A program made the translations under genes and the position numbers. This document shows positions 58,359-64,000 of a stretch of 64,000 nucleotides of DNA, piece by piece. Numbering within the stretch: position 1 is the first letter of the stretch; each line of letters starts with the position of its first letter. Origin of the DNA: Pleomorphomonas sp. (lineage in GTDB: Bacteria; Pseudomonadota; Alphaproteobacteria; Rhizobiales; Pleomorphomonadaceae); assembly GCA_029976075.1 (NCBI GenBank), contig JARKNW010000021.1, forward strand, positions 1-64,000. The letters are read 5' to 3'. Under the pieces are notes generated by a model. The model did no database searches. It was not told the origin of the DNA and saw nothing but the letters and a program-made list of their open reading frames with translations.

Positions 58359-59108
58359 CTATCCCGACAGCATCGGGCGGAAGGCGTCGCGGATCGTCTC
58401 GAGCGCGGCGATGCGGCGGATTTCAGCATCGACAAAGGTGTCGTCCCGGAGACGCGACGGCCGATCGATGGAAAGACGAGCCACAATCCGGCCGGGTCGG
58501 CCCGCGAGGACCACGACCCGATCGGCAAGCCGCACCGCTTCGGACAAGTCATGCGTGACCAGTACCACGGTCACGCCGCGCTCCTGGGCGTCGAGGCGGA
58601 CGAGCTGCTGCATTTCCCGCGACAAGCCGACATCTAGGGCCGAGAAAGCCTCATCGAGCAGCAGGAGATCAGGCTCGATGGCAAGAGCCCGCGCCAGCGC
58701 CACCCGCTTTTTCATGCCGCCGGAAAGCTGGTGCGGGTAAAGACCGGCGTCGTCCTGGCCGAGGCCGACCTTGACCAGCATCGATCGCGCACGGGAAAGC
58801 CGCTCGGCACGGGGGAGGCGCTGACCGGCGAGCCCGAAAATGACATTGCCGCGCGCCGTCCGCCACGGCAGGAGAAGCGGATCCTGAAAGACGAAGGCAG
58901 GTCGGATAAACGGGCGCTCGATGCGGCCTGAATCGGGCTCGCCAAGGCCGCCCATGATGTGCAGCAGCGTGGTTTTGCCGGCACCAGACGGCCCGAGGAT
59001 GGCAAGCACACTCCCCTTCGGCACACGGAGGTCGATGCCATCCAGCACCGTAACGCCGGGGAAGCCGTGCGTCACGCCAGTGGCGATCAGCGTGTCCTCC
59101 TCGCTCAT
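58359..59108 (-). CDS. NitT/TauT/SsuB-type ABC transporter ATPase
   Basis: A 249-aa ATPase of the nitrate/sulfonate/taurine import family with Walker A GPSGAGKT, the LSGGMKKR signature, Walker B LLLDEAFSALD and the switch His in VTHDLSEA. It overlaps the permease stop by four bases at ATG 59108. The extended upstream frame is not coding. The substrate is unknown; taurine, aromatic sulfonates, nitrate or thiamin precursors are possible. Confidence 0.9.
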   Translation of the reverse strand: MSEEDTLIATGVTHGFPGVTVLDGIDLRVPKGSVLAILGPSGAGKTTLLHIMGGLGEPDSGRIERPFIRPAFVFQDPLLLPWRTARGNVIFGLAGQRLPRAERLSRARSMLVKVGLGQDDAGLYPHQLSGGMKKRVALARALAIEPDLLLLDEAFSALDVGLSREMQQLVRLDAQERGVTVVLVTHDLSEAVRLADRVVVLAGRPGRIVARLSIDRPSRLRDDTFVDAEIRRIAALETIRDAFRPMLSG

Positions 59109-59899
59109 GCCACTTCTCCCGGCAAGCCTCGCCGCCAGATCTCGAAATACCGGCGGACCGGTCCGATGACGATGCGATCGACGATGAGCAGCAGCACCAC
59201 GACCACGACCACCCAGGCCATCGTCTTGGCGGTATCGACCTCGGCACGGGCTGCCGCAAGGCCATCGCCGATACCACCGGCACCGGACAGTAGCTCGGCC
59301 ATCACGGCCACTTTCCAGCTCATGGCCAGCGCCGTCCCGAGTGCCGGTAGCAAGTGGGAGAGAACGTGCGGCAGGTAGACGTCGACGATCCGGGCACCAA
59401 GAGGAACGCGGAACGCGCGCGCCATGGTGCGAAGCCCGCCATCGACGGTGCGCGTACCCTGGGTTGCAGCGGCAAACACGACCGGCCCTGCGGCAACCGC
59501 CACGGAGAATGTCGCCGCAAGACCCGAACCGCCGAACCACAGCAGCGACAGGACCACCCAGGCAATGGCCGGCACGCCGATCAGGATGGTAGCGATCGGC
59601 TGCAGCATCGCCCGCACCGGCATCGAGCGCCCGGCAAGTCCGCCCAACAGCGCCCCGGCGAGCGTCGCCGCGAGAAAGCCGCTGAGCGCGTCACGCGTTG
59701 TCGTCACCACGGCCGGCCAGAGTTCTCCCCGTATCCCAGTTTGCCCGAGGGCAAGGATCGTTGCCAGGGGTGACGGCAAGACGAAATCGCCATAGATACG
59801 GTGACCGATCTCCCAGAGCGCTATGACGGCGACGAGCCCAAGCACCGCCCAGCGACGCTCGCCACCGCCGGCCAGCTGACGCCAGGAGACCTTTGGCAT
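59105..59899 (-). CDS. NitT/TauT/SsuC-type ABC transporter permease
   Basis: A 264-aa permease with six helices. The N-terminal LWEIGHRIYGDFVLPSPLAT and the EAA-like coupling loop MARAFRVPLGARIVDVYLP are the expected segments. It sits between binding-protein and ATPase genes, four-base overlap with the latter and four bases after the former. Confidence 0.88.
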   Translation of the reverse strand: MPKVSWRQLAGGGERRWAVLGLVAVIALWEIGHRIYGDFVLPSPLATILALGQTGIRGELWPAVVTTTRDALSGFLAATLAGALLGGLAGRSMPVRAMLQPIATILIGVPAIAWVVLSLLWFGGSGLAATFSVAVAAGPVVFAAATQGTRTVDGGLRTMARAFRVPLGARIVDVYLPHVLSHLLPALGTALAMSWKVAVMAELLSGAGGIGDGLAAARAEVDTAKTMAWVVVVVVLLLIVDRIVIGPVRRYFEIWRRGLPGEVA

Positions 59900-59903
59900 G
59901 GTG

Positions 59904-60911
59904 TCAGCTTCCCCAATAGAATGCCGGCTCCGGCAACCGCCCGGCGACGATGTCCGGCGACAGCGTCATCAGCGCCTCGAAATAGGCCTCGAGATCGGCC
60001 CTGGCATCCCGTGCCGAGGCAACCTTCAAGCGGAAGCGCGGCAATGACGCCTCGATGATCGGTGACGGCAACTTCAGCGGACCGGCGATCAGCGTCGCAG
60101 CATCCTTTGGATGAGCGGCGACCCAATTTGCAGCCTCCATGGAAGCGGCATGCAACGCGGCTGCCACGTCGGGGTGGGCATTGAGAAAGCCCTCCGTCAC
60201 CGCGAGGCCGGCCTGCGGAATACCCACAGGACGGCCGGTCTGACTGGCATAGAGTTCGGTGACGTCGAGGGCGCGCGTGACGATAACGCCCGCCTGCCTC
60301 GCCTTGATTTCCGCAGCACTTGCGGCCGGCTCCGGCAACACCGCGGCGTCGGCCTTGCCCGCCAGCAGCAAAGGCACCGCCTCGGCCGAGGTACCGACAT
60401 AGGAAAGCGTCAGGTCCCGATCTGGCTCGAGCCCGGCAGCCTTGAGTACGAAGCGGGTCAGCAGGTCCGGCGCGTCGTTCTTGGCTCCCACCAGCAGCGT
60501 CTTCCCCTTGAGGTCTTCGATCCTTTCAAGCCGCACGCCCTGCCCTGCGAAGATATAGAGCAACCCCCAGGTCAGAACATTGACGAGGTGAACCCCGGCG
60601 CCGCGATTGAACAGATTGGCGGCGGCATAGCTGGGTGCGGCGAACAGGGCGATGTCGCCGGACACAACACCAGCCCGCATCTGATCGGCGGTACGCCAGA
60701 TGTCGAACCGTGCGTCTCCCACAAGCGACGACAGGGCGCCGGATGCGACCGCCCGCGCCAGTACGACCGAAGGAGAGGCCGGCATGCCCCACACTGTCAG
60801 ACGGTCAAGCGTGGCCGCGCGAGCCGGAAGCGCGACGAGCCCGGCGACAGCGGTCAGACATTCGAGAAAACGGCGACGATTCATACCTGCGAGCATGGAA
60901 GAAACTGTCAT
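59904..60911 (-). CDS. NitT/TauT/SsuA-type substrate-binding protein, Tat-like signal
   Basis: A 335-aa periplasmic protein. NRRRFLECLTAVAGLV looks like a twin-arginine signal, cleaved near PARAA. The mature domain (WGMPASPSVVLARAV, DLKGKTLLVGAKNDAPD) fits the SsuA/TauA/NMT1-like binding fold. Ligand is unknown. Start at 60911 has AGGT seven bases before it; ATG 60884 begins MNRRRFLE but has no room for a ribosome site. A divergent flavoprotein gene begins at 61286. Confidence 0.82.
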   Translation of the reverse strand: MTVSSMLAGMNRRRFLECLTAVAGLVALPARAATLDRLTVWGMPASPSVVLARAVASGALSSLVGDARFDIWRTADQMRAGVVSGDIALFAAPSYAAANLFNRGAGVHLVNVLTWGLLYIFAGQGVRLERIEDLKGKTLLVGAKNDAPDLLTRFVLKAAGLEPDRDLTLSYVGTSAEAVPLLLAGKADAAVLPEPAASAAEIKARQAGVIVTRALDVTELYASQTGRPVGIPQAGLAVTEGFLNAHPDVAAALHAASMEAANWVAAHPKDAATLIAGPLKLPSPIIEASLPRFRLKVASARDARADLEAYFEALMTLSPDIVAGRLPEPAFYWGS

Positions 60912-61285: not shown

Positions 61286-63286
61286 ATGGCACAGGTTGTT
61301 TATGGCGTGTGGGACGGTGTCGTCCACGATTATCGCCAAGGAAAGGCCGTGGAGGGCGCGACGCCTCCCGACCTGAAGGACTTCGAGGTCTTCAACGAGA
61401 ACAACCCGATCCGCGCCTTCGTGGCCGATCGCGGTTTCTTCGTCTTCGATGAGAAGGTCAATCTCATCGACACCTTCTGGCAGTACCTCAGCAAGGCGGC
61501 CGATGAATCCTGCGGCAAGTGCACACCTTGCCGCATGGGTACCGTGCTGGTGCGTGACGCACTTGGCGCCATGCGCCGTGGGCTCGAGGGCGACCTCAGC
61601 CTCGACGAGATCGCCACCATGGCCGAACAGATGCGCGCCACCTCGCTCTGCGGCCTCGGCCAGTCCTGCGGCACCGCGCTCGGCAAGGCGATCGCCGCCT
61701 TCCGCGACGAGTTCGAGGCCGAGCTCGCCAAGAAGGAACCGGCACGCCAGCAGAACGCCATGAGCTACATGACGGCGCCCTGCATCGAGGCATGCCCGTC
61801 CAAGGTCAACGTGCCCCGCTACATCGACTACATCCGCGATGGCAAGCCCGAGCATTCGCTCGGCGTCATCCTGCAGAAGTATCCGATGGCCGCGACCTGC
61901 AGCCGCGTCTGCGTCCGCTTCTGCGAGGCGGCCTGCCGCCGCAAGATGGTCGACGAGGCCGTCGGCATCAAGATCCTGAAGCGCTATGTCGCCGAGTATC
62001 AGACCGGCCCGCATCCGCTGGTGTTCTCCAAGGACATGATCGCCAACATCCTACCGGAAGATCAGCGCGTCGCCATCGTCGGCGCCGGGCCGGCCGGCGT
62101 TTCCTGCGCCTATCACCTGCTGATGCGCGGCTATCACGTCGACGTCTACGAAGCCCAGGGCGAGATGGGCGGCATGGCCGCCATCGGCATCCCGTCCTAT
62201 CGACTGCCGAAGGACGTGCTGCTCAACGAGATGCACGCCATCACCAATCTCGGCGGACGCTTCTTCTTCAACCAGCGCCTCGGCACCGACTTCTCGGTCG
62301 ATGAGCTGTTCAAGCGCGGCTACAAGTCGGTGTTCCTCGCCCTGGGTTGCCAGGAAGGCACCAAGATGGGCTGCGACAACGAGGATACCAGCCTCGACGG
62401 CTACGAGTCCGGCATCGGCTTCCTGCTCAAGGTCCACGACCACGTCGCTGGCATCAAGACGCACAATATCGACGGTGAAGTCGTGGTTGTTGGCGGCGGC
62501 AACGTCGCCATGGACTGCGTCCGCTCGGCCGTCCGCATGGGCGCCAAGAAGGTCCACCTCGTCTATCGCCGCACCGAAGCCGACATGCCAGCCGACCACG
62601 AGGAAGTCGTGGCTGCCCATGCCGAAGGCATCGAGTTCCATGTGCTGACCAACCCGGTCTCCATCATCTCGGAGAACGGCAAGGTCACCGGCGTCAAGCT
62701 CACCAAGATGGAGCAGACGGAAATGGACGCCAAGGGTCGCCGCAACGTGCGGCCGATCCCCGGCAGCGAATATGTCATGCCCTGCTCGGTGGTGATCGCC
62801 GCCATCGGCCAGCAGGTCGACACCGGTTCGGTCAAGCCCGAAGACGGCGTCGAGATGAGCAAGTGGAACTGGGTCGTCGCCAACAAGGAGACGCTGGCCA
62901 CCTCGCGGCCCGGCGTGTTCGCCGGTGGCGACTGCTACCTCGGCCCGTCGACGCTGATCGCCGCCATGGCCGACGGCCTCAAGGCCGCCCGCAACATCGA
63001 CGACTATCTGCGGCGGGGCTCGACCCGCTTCTTCCCGCGCTCGCGCATGCGCAAGATCCTGGAGAACAACAAGCTGTTCTCCAACGACTGCATCGAGGTG
63101 CCGGTCAAGAACGAGTACCGCGTCCACCATCCGGAACTGTCGCCGGAAGTGCGCAAGACCATGTTCGGGGAAGTCGAGCAGATCATCAGCTCCGAGGACG
63201 CCTACAAGGAGTCCATGCGCTGCATGCGCTGCTACCGCATCTATTCCGTGATCACCGAACACTCCATCCCCGAAGGAGCGGCGTGA
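61286..63286 (+). CDS. NuoF-tail/GltD-like fusion flavoprotein, NAD(P)H oxidoreductase
   Basis: A 666-aa fusion. Residues about 60-140 match the C-terminal [4Fe-4S] part of NuoF (ESCGKCTPCRMGT with Cys76, 79, 82, then TSLCGLGQSCG with Cys122). The NuoF FMN/NADH domain is missing. The rest is like the small subunit of glutamate synthase (GltD): N-terminal Fe-S cysteines (CIEACPS; CSRVCVRFCEAAC), FAD loop VAIVGAGPAGVSCAY, and NAD(P) loop VVVVGGGNVAMDCVRSAV. The C-terminus has extra cysteines (MRCMRCYR). It likely passes electrons between NAD(P)H and the next gene product. Confidence 0.85.
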   Translation: MAQVVYGVWDGVVHDYRQGKAVEGATPPDLKDFEVFNENNPIRAFVADRGFFVFDEKVNLIDTFWQYLSKAADESCGKCTPCRMGTVLVRDALGAMRRGLEGDLSLDEIATMAEQMRATSLCGLGQSCGTALGKAIAAFRDEFEAELAKKEPARQQNAMSYMTAPCIEACPSKVNVPRYIDYIRDGKPEHSLGVILQKYPMAATCSRVCVRFCEAACRRKMVDEAVGIKILKRYVAEYQTGPHPLVFSKDMIANILPEDQRVAIVGAGPAGVSCAYHLLMRGYHVDVYEAQGEMGGMAAIGIPSYRLPKDVLLNEMHAITNLGGRFFFNQRLGTDFSVDELFKRGYKSVFLALGCQEGTKMGCDNEDTSLDGYESGIGFLLKVHDHVAGIKTHNIDGEVVVVGGGNVAMDCVRSAVRMGAKKVHLVYRRTEADMPADHEEVVAAHAEGIEFHVLTNPVSIISENGKVTGVKLTKMEQTEMDAKGRRNVRPIPGSEYVMPCSVVIAAIGQQVDTGSVKPEDGVEMSKWNWVVANKETLATSRPGVFAGGDCYLGPSTLIAAMADGLKAARNIDDYLRRGSTRFFPRSRMRKILENNKLFSNDCIEVPVKNEYRVHHPELSPEVRKTMFGEVEQIISSEDAYKESMRCMRCYRIYSVITEHSIPEGAA

Positions 63287-63290
63287 GACC

Positions 63291-64000
63291 ATGTGCAACG
63301 TCGAAACTCTCACCCCCGTCGGCGCCGAAGCCACGATCAACGTCAAGATCAACGGCAAGGCCGTAACGGCCTATCCGAACGAGACGATCCTCGCCGCCGC
63401 CCGCCGGCATGACTTCTACATTCCGACGCTCTGCGAGCTGGCCGACATCGACCACACCCCCGGCACCTGCCGCGTGTGCCTTGTCGAGATCCAGATGCCG
63501 GACCAGGCCGGCACCCATATGGTGACGGCCTGCAACACGCCGGTTAAGGAAGGTCTCGCCATCGAGACGCGCACCAAGAAGGTGCGCGACATGCAGAAGC
63601 TGCAGGTCGAACTGTTGATGGCCGACCATCTTCAGGACTGCGCCACCTGCACTCGTCATGGCTCCTGCGAACTTCAGGACGTGGCGCAGTTCGTCGGCCT
63701 GAAGGAGAACCGCTTCTTCGACCCGATCCGCGTCGCCTCCCGTGAAGTCGATACCTCGTCGCCGGCCATGGTCCGCGACATGACCAAGTGCATTCGCTGC
63801 CAGCGTTGCGTCGCGGTCTGCCGCTACCACCAGGAAGTCGACGCGCTGGTCATCACCGGCACCGGCCTCGATACAGCCGTCGGCCTGCGTCACGGCAAGA
63901 ACCAGAAGGACTCGACCTGCGTCACCTGCGGCCAGTGCGTCCTGGTCTGCCCGACCGGCGCCCTCGCCGAGAAGGACGAGACCGATCGCGTCCTCGATTT
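63291..64000 (+). CDS. N-terminal part of a hydrogenase- or formate-dehydrogenase-type Fe-S subunit, cut by window end
   Basis: ATG 63291 lies four bases after the previous stop, and 236 codons are visible. Order of clusters: a plant-type [2Fe-2S] domain (CELADIDHTPGTCRVCLVE), a His/Cys-ligated [4Fe-4S] site HLQDCATCTRHGSC (His-x3-Cys-x2-Cys-x5-Cys), then two ferredoxin-type sites CIRCQRCVAVC and CVTCGQCVLVCPTGAL. This N-terminal set is shared by [FeFe]-hydrogenases, NAD-linked formate dehydrogenase alpha subunits and NuoG. The partner gene favours an [FeFe]-hydrogenase, but the catalytic domain is outside the window. Confidence 0.8.
   Translation, partial: MCNVETLTPVGAEATINVKINGKAVTAYPNETILAAARRHDFYIPTLCELADIDHTPGTCRVCLVEIQMPDQAGTHMVTACNTPVKEGLAIETRTKKVRDMQKLQVELLMADHLQDCATCTRHGSCELQDVAQFVGLKENRFFDPIRVASREVDTSSPAMVRDMTKCIRCQRCVAVCRYHQEVDALVITGTGLDTAVGLRHGKNQKDSTCVTCGQCVLVCPTGALAEKDETDRVLD

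Follow-up and report, generated by a model that had tools for sequence, protein, structure and literature searches.

Introduction

In the HydDB classification, group A2 of the [FeFe]-hydrogenases is entered as 'Glutamate synthase-linked (putative). Undetermined role', and its written rule asks that the gene just after that of the catalytic subunit encode a GltD-type protein and not a NuoF (PMC5037454); in later gut and rumen surveys the group is still functionally unresolved (PMC6776011, PMC12578642). Here we describe a gene pair that bears on this group, located at the right-hand end of a 64,000-base stretch of Pleomorphomonas DNA (the window; bases 1-64000 of contig C18, which is 78,471 bases long). 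In this pair, P1, a fusion of the tail of NuoF with a GltD-like flavoprotein, is encoded directly upstream of P2, an [FeFe]-hydrogenase catalytic subunit whose gene runs on past the window edge. An earlier interpretation of the window made without database searches, the sequence-only reading, had described A2 as a glutamate-synthase-linked group, as HydDB indeed defines it.

Two other described systems are relevant to the flavin module and to the hydrogenase, namely StnABC with its relative NfnB, and the HydABC complexes. In StnC, electrons pass from NADPH to flavin adenine dinucleotide (FAD) and through clusters C7 and C6 to NuoG-type clusters, and the FAD, whose NADPH site is homologous to that of NfnB, is reported to be non-bifurcating; the cluster next to the FAD has a lysine ligand (K170) in StnC and a glutamate in the bifurcating NfnB, where R201, the counterpart of StnC R239, is reported to be important for bifurcation (PMC10482914). 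A GxGxxA motif is stated, for StnC, to favour NADP(H) (PMC7483475).

Within the genus, Pleomorphomonas oryzae has already been credited with a pair of 'type M3' [FeFe]-hydrogenases and the full set of maturases (Degli Esposti et al., 2016; PMC4967309), an inventory matching the two [FeFe]-hydrogenases and three maturases reported below; the account gives accession WP_036838588, and the words 'GltD', 'gltA' and 'glutamate' do not occur in its main text. A Pleomorphomonas-like isolate converts CO to H2 and CO2, and that account does not name the hydrogenase responsible (PMC5603099). In the literature listed and covered, which mostly did not extend to subscription journals, we found no description of a GltD-linked pair in Alphaproteobacteria or of a purified A2 enzyme.

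Results and discussion

A GltD-linked hydrogenase pair at the window edge

According to Pfam, P1 consists of the C-terminal [4Fe-4S] domain of NuoF joined to a GltD/NfnB-like FAD/NAD(P) module (Table 1), without the flavin mononucleotide (FMN) domain Complex1_51K, just as the sequence-only reading had described it; a NuoE-like 2Fe-2S_thioredx domain is missing as well. Because the FMN domain is missing, the GltD-type FAD is the only flavin site discernible in the protein. Against the NuoF family model TIGR01959, P1 scores 60.9 bits for a cut-off of 558.65, only the tail being present, and it is below the cut-offs of the GltD-type models TIGR01316, TIGR01317 and TIGR01318 among the best 25 of 47 NCBIfam families. 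Its three best relatives of solved structure, 9bov_A ('Molybdopterin oxidoreductase', 1178 amino acids (aa)), 9n5u_A ('NfnA') and 8oh5_C (at 1172 aa, as long as StnC is stated to be), have matches that span P1 residues 126-650.

The four cysteines of the NuoF tail (C76, C79, C82 and C122) are invariant in all 11 alphaproteobacterial P1 rows of the alignment and in the Collinsella protein discussed below, which makes an N3-type [4Fe-4S] cluster likely in this part of P1, and the C-terminal CxxC is kept in the same 11 rows, in Collinsella and in two StnC-like rows. Further along the protein, K232 aligns with StnC K170, a position that is also Lys in Collinsella and is Glu in the Ilyobacter GltA row; the Arg of 'QYRLDK', R239 in StnC, is retained as R306; and Y427-R428-R429 together with a GGGNxA motif are common to all eight aligned GltD-type rows.

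The next gene had been said to lie four bases on and to begin with a [2Fe-2S], a His/Cys [4Fe-4S] and two [4Fe-4S] sites. The P1 stop at 63286 and the P2 ATG at 63291 bear out the first point, and Pfam and motifs agree on the second, the Pfam set of P2 being Fer2_4, NADH-G_4Fe-4S_3, 4Fe-4S sites, Fe_hyd_lg_C and Fe_hyd_SSU. Past position 64000, where H-cluster motifs had been expected, P2 carries all three, TSCCP (L1), MPCTAK (L2) and EIMACPGGCVDGGG (L3), and has an H-cluster domain instead of the molybdopterin or NuoG catalytic domain that had been named as the contrary outcome. Across 30 HydA rows, which include some genomes twice, MPCxxK and the L3 motif are present in every row and TSCCP in 29, the remaining row reading SSCCP. 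P2 is also above the cut-off of the group A model TIGR02512 (523.6 versus 405.95 bits), and the maturases that had been proposed as a check are all encoded in the same genome, with HydF (540.2 bits), HydG (505.3 bits) and HydE (307.1 bits) each over its cut-off.

A scan of genome contigs with P1 returned 10 loci, eight of them Pleomorphomonas contigs with a whole P1 at 89-97% identity, in line with the alphaproteobacterial host that had been supposed, and two on contigs titled 'Proteobacteria bacterium' with a partial P1. Between the window and three relatives, the proportion of synonymous sites changed in P1 and P2 is 0.189-0.381, versus 0.017-0.069 for non-synonymous sites. Since P1 recurs whole in relatives and synonymous change far exceeds non-synonymous change, the pair is not a chance arrangement; it is a real, conserved and apparently functional GltD-linked [FeFe]-hydrogenase.

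Comparison with described systems

The gene row of Collinsella aerofaciens NZ_OY725717.1 comprises a 253-aa 4Fe-4S protein, a 610-aa 'NAD(P)-binding protein', a '[FeFe] hydrogenase, group A', an ATP-binding cassette (ABC) binding protein and an ATP-binding cassette protein. The 610-aa protein, which is 33% identical to P1, has NADH_4Fe-4S, Fer4_20 and Pyr_redox_2 in the same order and is encoded directly upstream of a HydA laid out like P2; both GltD-like proteins are without the first Cys pair of the Ilyobacter GltA row and have the C-terminal CxxC, and in Collinsella ABC binding-protein and permease-ATPase genes stand directly 3' of the hydrogenase. As this locus has the same two-gene architecture, the GltD-linked kind of hydrogenase is known already.

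The proposal that the pair fits group A2 holds in one respect and fails in another. As in A2, a GltD/GltA-type protein adjoins the catalytic subunit, and the architecture agrees to that extent; the letter of the HydDB rule does not, since P1 is encoded upstream of P2 and not downstream, in the same order as in Collinsella. The NuoF tail of P1 may in addition fall under the exclusion of NuoF in the rule (NuoF content being scored by TIGR01959 here and by CDD in HydDB). We have therefore not filed the pair as A2 in the strict wording of the rule. The HydDB table suggests for the group that it 'May couple H2 oxidation to NAD reduction, generating reductant for glutamate synthase' (PMC5037454), which for P1-P2 would mean an H2-to-NAD+ enzyme supplying glutamate synthase. 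We consider this role very unlikely here: P1 does not reach the GltD-type cut-offs given above, and none of the open reading frames (ORFs) scanned near the pair, which were a part of those present, matched the large subunit, gltB (no genome-wide search for it was made).

With the HydABC complexes (group A3, bifurcating, or group A6, NADH-dependent), P2 shares the HydA layout and the P1 tail resembles the C-terminal part of HydB, but the FMN/NADH and NuoE-like domains are missing from P1 and P2 falls in a separate clade. The mark of group A3, an FMN-bearing NuoF-like and a NuoE-like subunit, is lacking in P1 and present in the partner of a second, HydB-linked [FeFe]-hydrogenase on contig C119 of the same genome, the protein before that hydrogenase having thioredoxin-like [2Fe-2S], FMN (Complex1_51K) and NADH_4Fe-4S domains. 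In StnABC and NfnB, as in P1, a GltD-like FAD/NADPH module is coupled to NuoG-type clusters, and StnC has Lys and Arg at the K170 and R239 positions, as P1 does; in the published description, however, the GltD module of StnC sits inside a NuoG/FdhF-like chain without an H-cluster, whereas P1 is a separate subunit with a NuoF tail. None of NfnA, StnAB or a NuoG/FdhF-like StnC was found among the scanned neighbours of the pair, the partner of P1 being the H-cluster protein.

Distribution of the pair

In the order to which Pleomorphomonas belongs, a match to family PF02906 occurs in 34 of 397 genomes and in 7 of 141 genera, and 14 of the 34 genomes are from the window's genus. The first 245 residues of P1 are present in 13 of these 14 (in G755 they are split over two contigs), and in the 14th, G756, P2 stands at the very start of a 5,870-base contig (L173); in L022, which we take to be this same contig, the last 55 residues of P1 stand ahead of P2. 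The six other genomes of the window's family do not have these 245 residues, the matches there being partial. Of the 20 order genomes outside the genus, 19 have the P1 gene immediately before that of P2, and in G1030 the contig ends inside P2. A HydB-linked enzyme accompanies P2 in only one of these 20 genomes, G1021; of the other 19, 18 contain a single PF02906 match, whereas G1024 shows an additional weak match of 107.9 bits, and its stretch contains no HydB match. The pair is thus an established gene set of several families in the order, and is absent from the rest of the window's family as sampled.

In three genomes of one family (f260), hydG, an aspartate ammonia-lyase gene and hydF come after P2 in that order, with P1 upstream of P2 in two and cut off in the third. 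Such adjacent maturase genes argue against a sensory or regulatory relative of the [FeFe]-hydrogenases, or a non-hydrogenase use of the fold, as do the complete relay chain and the catalytic motifs retained, and among the Pfam matches of P1 and P2 there is no PAS or kinase domain. That the pair stands by itself in the window's genome, as a unit of two genes to which no other metabolic gene is attached (the gene 3' of P2 encodes a beta-ketoacyl synthase on the opposite strand), would agree with a sensory role, which on balance we find extremely improbable.

Beyond the order, PF02906 matches were present in 24 of 385 genomes of the class sample and in 5 of 398 of the phylum sample, one of the latter (G544) lying below the family cut-off. 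We examined 36 stretches, representing every class match except that of the window's genome, together with two of the three additional matches from the phylum (not G544), and none of them contains a P1-type fusion. A HydA-like match of at least 250 bits is present in 20 of the 36, with a HydB-like neighbour in 16 and none in 4 (L069-L072). Two of these four, L070 (G183) and L072 (G394), encode long HydA proteins of 694 and 708 aa, respectively, which form a long branch of their own, and there is no HydB or P1 match near these genes in their stretches.

In a plasmid collection, 2 of 168 matching records cover at least 80% of P1, one of them, from Collinsella, being the GltD-linked pair, and a search with the Collinsella protein added no record covering 80%. 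A match in Acetoanaerobium was rejected as a GltD-linked hydrogenase pair, being a StnB/StnC-like pair without an H-cluster domain. Among viral contigs a single-sequence scan gave no P1 relative, and an alignment scan gave four distant GltD-type loci, which were not used. As a separate observation, G749, a genome of another genus in the window's family in which no PF02906 match was found, has neighbouring genes for a NuoF-like protein, for a chain that carries NuoG-type clusters and for a GltD-like protein of its own (L146:5798-12965).

Phylogeny

A HydA tree was built from 43 of 59 collected rows, after two short rows had been dropped and 14 near-duplicates skipped, and carries a warning of meeting long branches. 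The 16 GltD-linked alphaproteobacterial rows, one of which (L170, from G1030) is the contig-cut case with P1 out of view, stand on one side of a branch (100/100; stem 0.92), and the 17 HydB-linked alphaproteobacterial rows are separate from them (100/100). The placement of the Collinsella HydA, the sole GltD-linked row from outside, is unresolved with all 43 rows; once eight long or odd rows had been removed it joined the GltD-linked clade with non-significant support (75/78), and a tree of the GltD module likewise left Collinsella without a resolved position. The NuoF tail of P1 scores 57.8-75.1 bits against all 13 HydB-type proteins tested, and 51.6 bits, over a shorter stretch, against the Collinsella tail. 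A single origin of all GltD-linked pairs is possible; because the trees leave Collinsella unplaced and the P1 tail scores higher against HydB-type proteins, two separate fusions are possible as well.

Proposed electron path and direction

We infer that P1 and P2 probably form a soluble, two-subunit, NADP(H)-linked and non-bifurcating hydrogenase, in which the NuoF tail would act as both relay and docking adaptor. NAD(P)H, most likely NADPH, would exchange hydride with the FAD of the GltD-like module of P1; single electrons would then travel by way of the [4Fe-4S] clusters in the Fer4_20 region to the N3-type cluster in the NuoF tail, and from there through the NuoG-like clusters of P2 to the H-cluster, where H2 would be made or oxidised. 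By analogy with HydB, where this domain is the one that partners HydA, the tail may have been retained because a NuoG/HydA-like partner would naturally dock on it and exchange electrons with it, while the FMN/NADH head was replaced by GltD. Arginines such as R428-R429 would favour NADP(H). The FAD of P1 would most likely be non-bifurcating, as in StnC, so that the complex would couple NAD(P)H to H2 as a simple NADP(H):H2 oxidoreductase. It would reduce NADP+ where nitrogenase, CO oxidation or another source supplies H2 in abundance, and would evolve H2 only at low H2 levels.

With NADPH as the only donor, H2 formation is endergonic under standard conditions, a consideration that would suit a bifurcating or confurcating enzyme, with the FAD of P1 bifurcating like that of NfnB or the complex recruiting either ferredoxin or the NuoE/NuoF-type partner of the HydB-linked hydrogenase, and H2 being made from NADPH together with reduced ferredoxin. 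The GltD/NfnB fold is the bifurcating fold in Nfn, the counterpart of NfnB R201 is retained in P1 as R306, and a HydB-linked [FeFe]-hydrogenase is also encoded in the window's genome; yet the proximal-cluster position of NfnB is Lys in P1 and not Glu, the two-gene unit is without NfnA, NuoE or an FMN protein, and the other genomes of the order, with the single exception of G1021, have P2 without the HydB-linked enzyme. We therefore hold bifurcation to be unlikely.

Several points nevertheless weigh against our preferred reading of P1-P2 as a simple NADP(H)-linked hydrogenase. P2 is below the curated cut-off of the group A6 model NF040763 (743.7 versus 765 bits), as is the Collinsella HydA (760 versus 765 bits). 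P1 is missing the first two cysteines of the Ilyobacter GltA row, and because of this missing pair it is uncertain which residues bind one of the GltD clusters. The preference for NADP(H) is suggested by motif letters common to all eight rows compared, and R306 does not appear to decide on bifurcation, because the same Arg is kept in the non-bifurcating StnC. The AlphaFold model of P1 is poor (mean predicted local distance difference test score 39.9; nine sequences aligned, the others being 89-97% identical to P1), and the contact between tail, GltD module and P2 is a predicted one.

Genomic context and upstream region

The draft genome comprises 5,355,901 bases in 177 contigs (completeness 94.36, contamination 7.9). 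Its hydF and hydG genes are located on contig C101 with an aspartate ammonia-lyase gene in between and hydE nearby (L145:2428-12621 holds all three), and a gene for a hybrid-cluster (prismane) protein neighbours hydE. A [NiFe]-hydrogenase large subunit is encoded on C68. The sequence-only reading had set the pair 'next to' a nitrogen-fixing lifestyle, which is right for the lifestyle, as nifH is in the genome, and not for the map, as nifH is on another contig, C114.

Upstream of P1, FNR/FixK boxes with at most one mismatch were found in none of 19 loci (650 bases each around the ORF start, 411 for the window); at two mismatches, nine loci gave two boxes that differ in location, one of the window and one of L017, and in none of the nine did a sigma54 or NifA pattern match. 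Because no anaerobic or nitrogen control site was found, the link to nitrogen fixation is one of genome content without regulatory support. A 35-base block upstream of P1 (61112-61146) is identical or has at most two mismatches in eight of nine Pleomorphomonas loci, L018 differing; it is possibly a regulatory site or an untranslated leader.

Beyond the window, C18:71506-78471 contains ubiU and ubiV (anaerobic ubiquinone synthesis) and genes for NnrS, a Crp/Fnr-type regulator and a CobW/HypB-type GTPase, the last being followed to the end of C18 by Nuo/Hyf-like antiporter subunits.

An ABC importer beside the pair

Divergent from P1, the window encodes an NMT1-type importer (Table 1). When at most five candidates were scored per genome, binding-protein matches of at least 330 bits occurred in 24 of the 397 order genomes, all of them among the 34 with a PF02906 match; these are related genomes and not independent cases. 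In 23 of the 24, no more than about 4.5 kb separates the binding-protein gene from the pair, and in G756 both are near contig ends. The next matches reach at most 268 bits, several being in genomes without the hydrogenase, and no binding-protein or permease match stands beside a HydB-linked HydA gene in the stretches searched. Against a strict link between importer and hydrogenase speak 10 of the 34 hydrogenase genomes, which are without an orthologue at this threshold. The linkage may have a functional basis, or the genes may simply have been carried along together.

The binding protein of Collinsella falls just under the NMT1 cut-off (20.4 versus 20.5 bits) and scores 70.0 bits against the window's protein and 61.4 bits against another copy in the genome; with so small a gap, specific orthology of the importers of Collinsella and Pleomorphomonas was not borne out.

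Table 1. Positions of the pair, its predicted cofactor sites and the adjoining importer in the window
Feature	Position	Strand	Basis
P1, NuoF-tail/GltD fusion flavoprotein, 666 aa	61286..63286	+	ORF, Pfam, gene order in relatives
NADH_4Fe-4S domain of P1, residues 65-145; N3-type C76, C79, C82, C122	61478..61720	+	Pfam, alignment
Fer4_20 region of P1, residues 142-239; C166, C170, C205, C209, C213, C217, K232 (StnC K170 position)	61709..62002	+	Pfam, alignment
Pyr_redox_2 FAD/NAD(P) module of P1, residues 261-564; R306 (StnC R239 position), Y427-R428-R429	62066..62977	+	Pfam, alignment
C-terminal C646-x2-C649 of P1	63221..63232	+	alignment
P2, [FeFe]-hydrogenase catalytic subunit, 616 aa	63291..64000, on to contig position 65141	+	ORF, Pfam, motifs
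[2Fe-2S] cysteines of P2	63429..63533	+	motif; Fer2_4 (Pfam)
His/Cys [4Fe-4S] site of P2, HxxxCxxCxxxxxC	63627..63668	+	motif; NADH-G_4Fe-4S_3 (Pfam)
[4Fe-4S] site of P2	63789..63821	+	motif
[4Fe-4S] site of P2, second	63918..63953	+	motif
H-cluster motifs of P2 (past window edge)	contig positions 64236, 64404, 64839	+	
NMT1-type substrate-binding protein, 335 aa, divergent from P1, candidate partner transporter	59904..60911	-	Pfam; orthologues adjoin pair
ABC permease of the NMT1-type importer	59105..59899	-	Pfam
ABC ATPase of the NMT1-type importer, start provisional	58359..59105	-	Pfam

Significance

In its widest form, which we offer as a speculation with rather little chance of holding in full, the Alphaproteobacteria of this order would own a lineage of NADP(H)-coupled, ferredoxin-independent [FeFe]-hydrogenases, the N3 domain of NuoF would be a universal plug by which flavin modules are exchanged on HydA, the substrate of a dedicated NMT1-type importer would serve the enzyme or its maturation, and diazotrophs would turn nitrogenase- or CO-derived H2 into NADPH.

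Apart from such speculation, the pair would show that a flavin module can be swapped on HydA with the NuoF cluster domain kept, and the recurrence of an ABC importer beside it is a new, testable lead. The conservation of P1-P2 in culturable facultative diazotrophs opens a route to enzyme purification and gene deletion, which could settle the cofactor, the direction and the question of bifurcation for an almost unstudied kind of hydrogenase.

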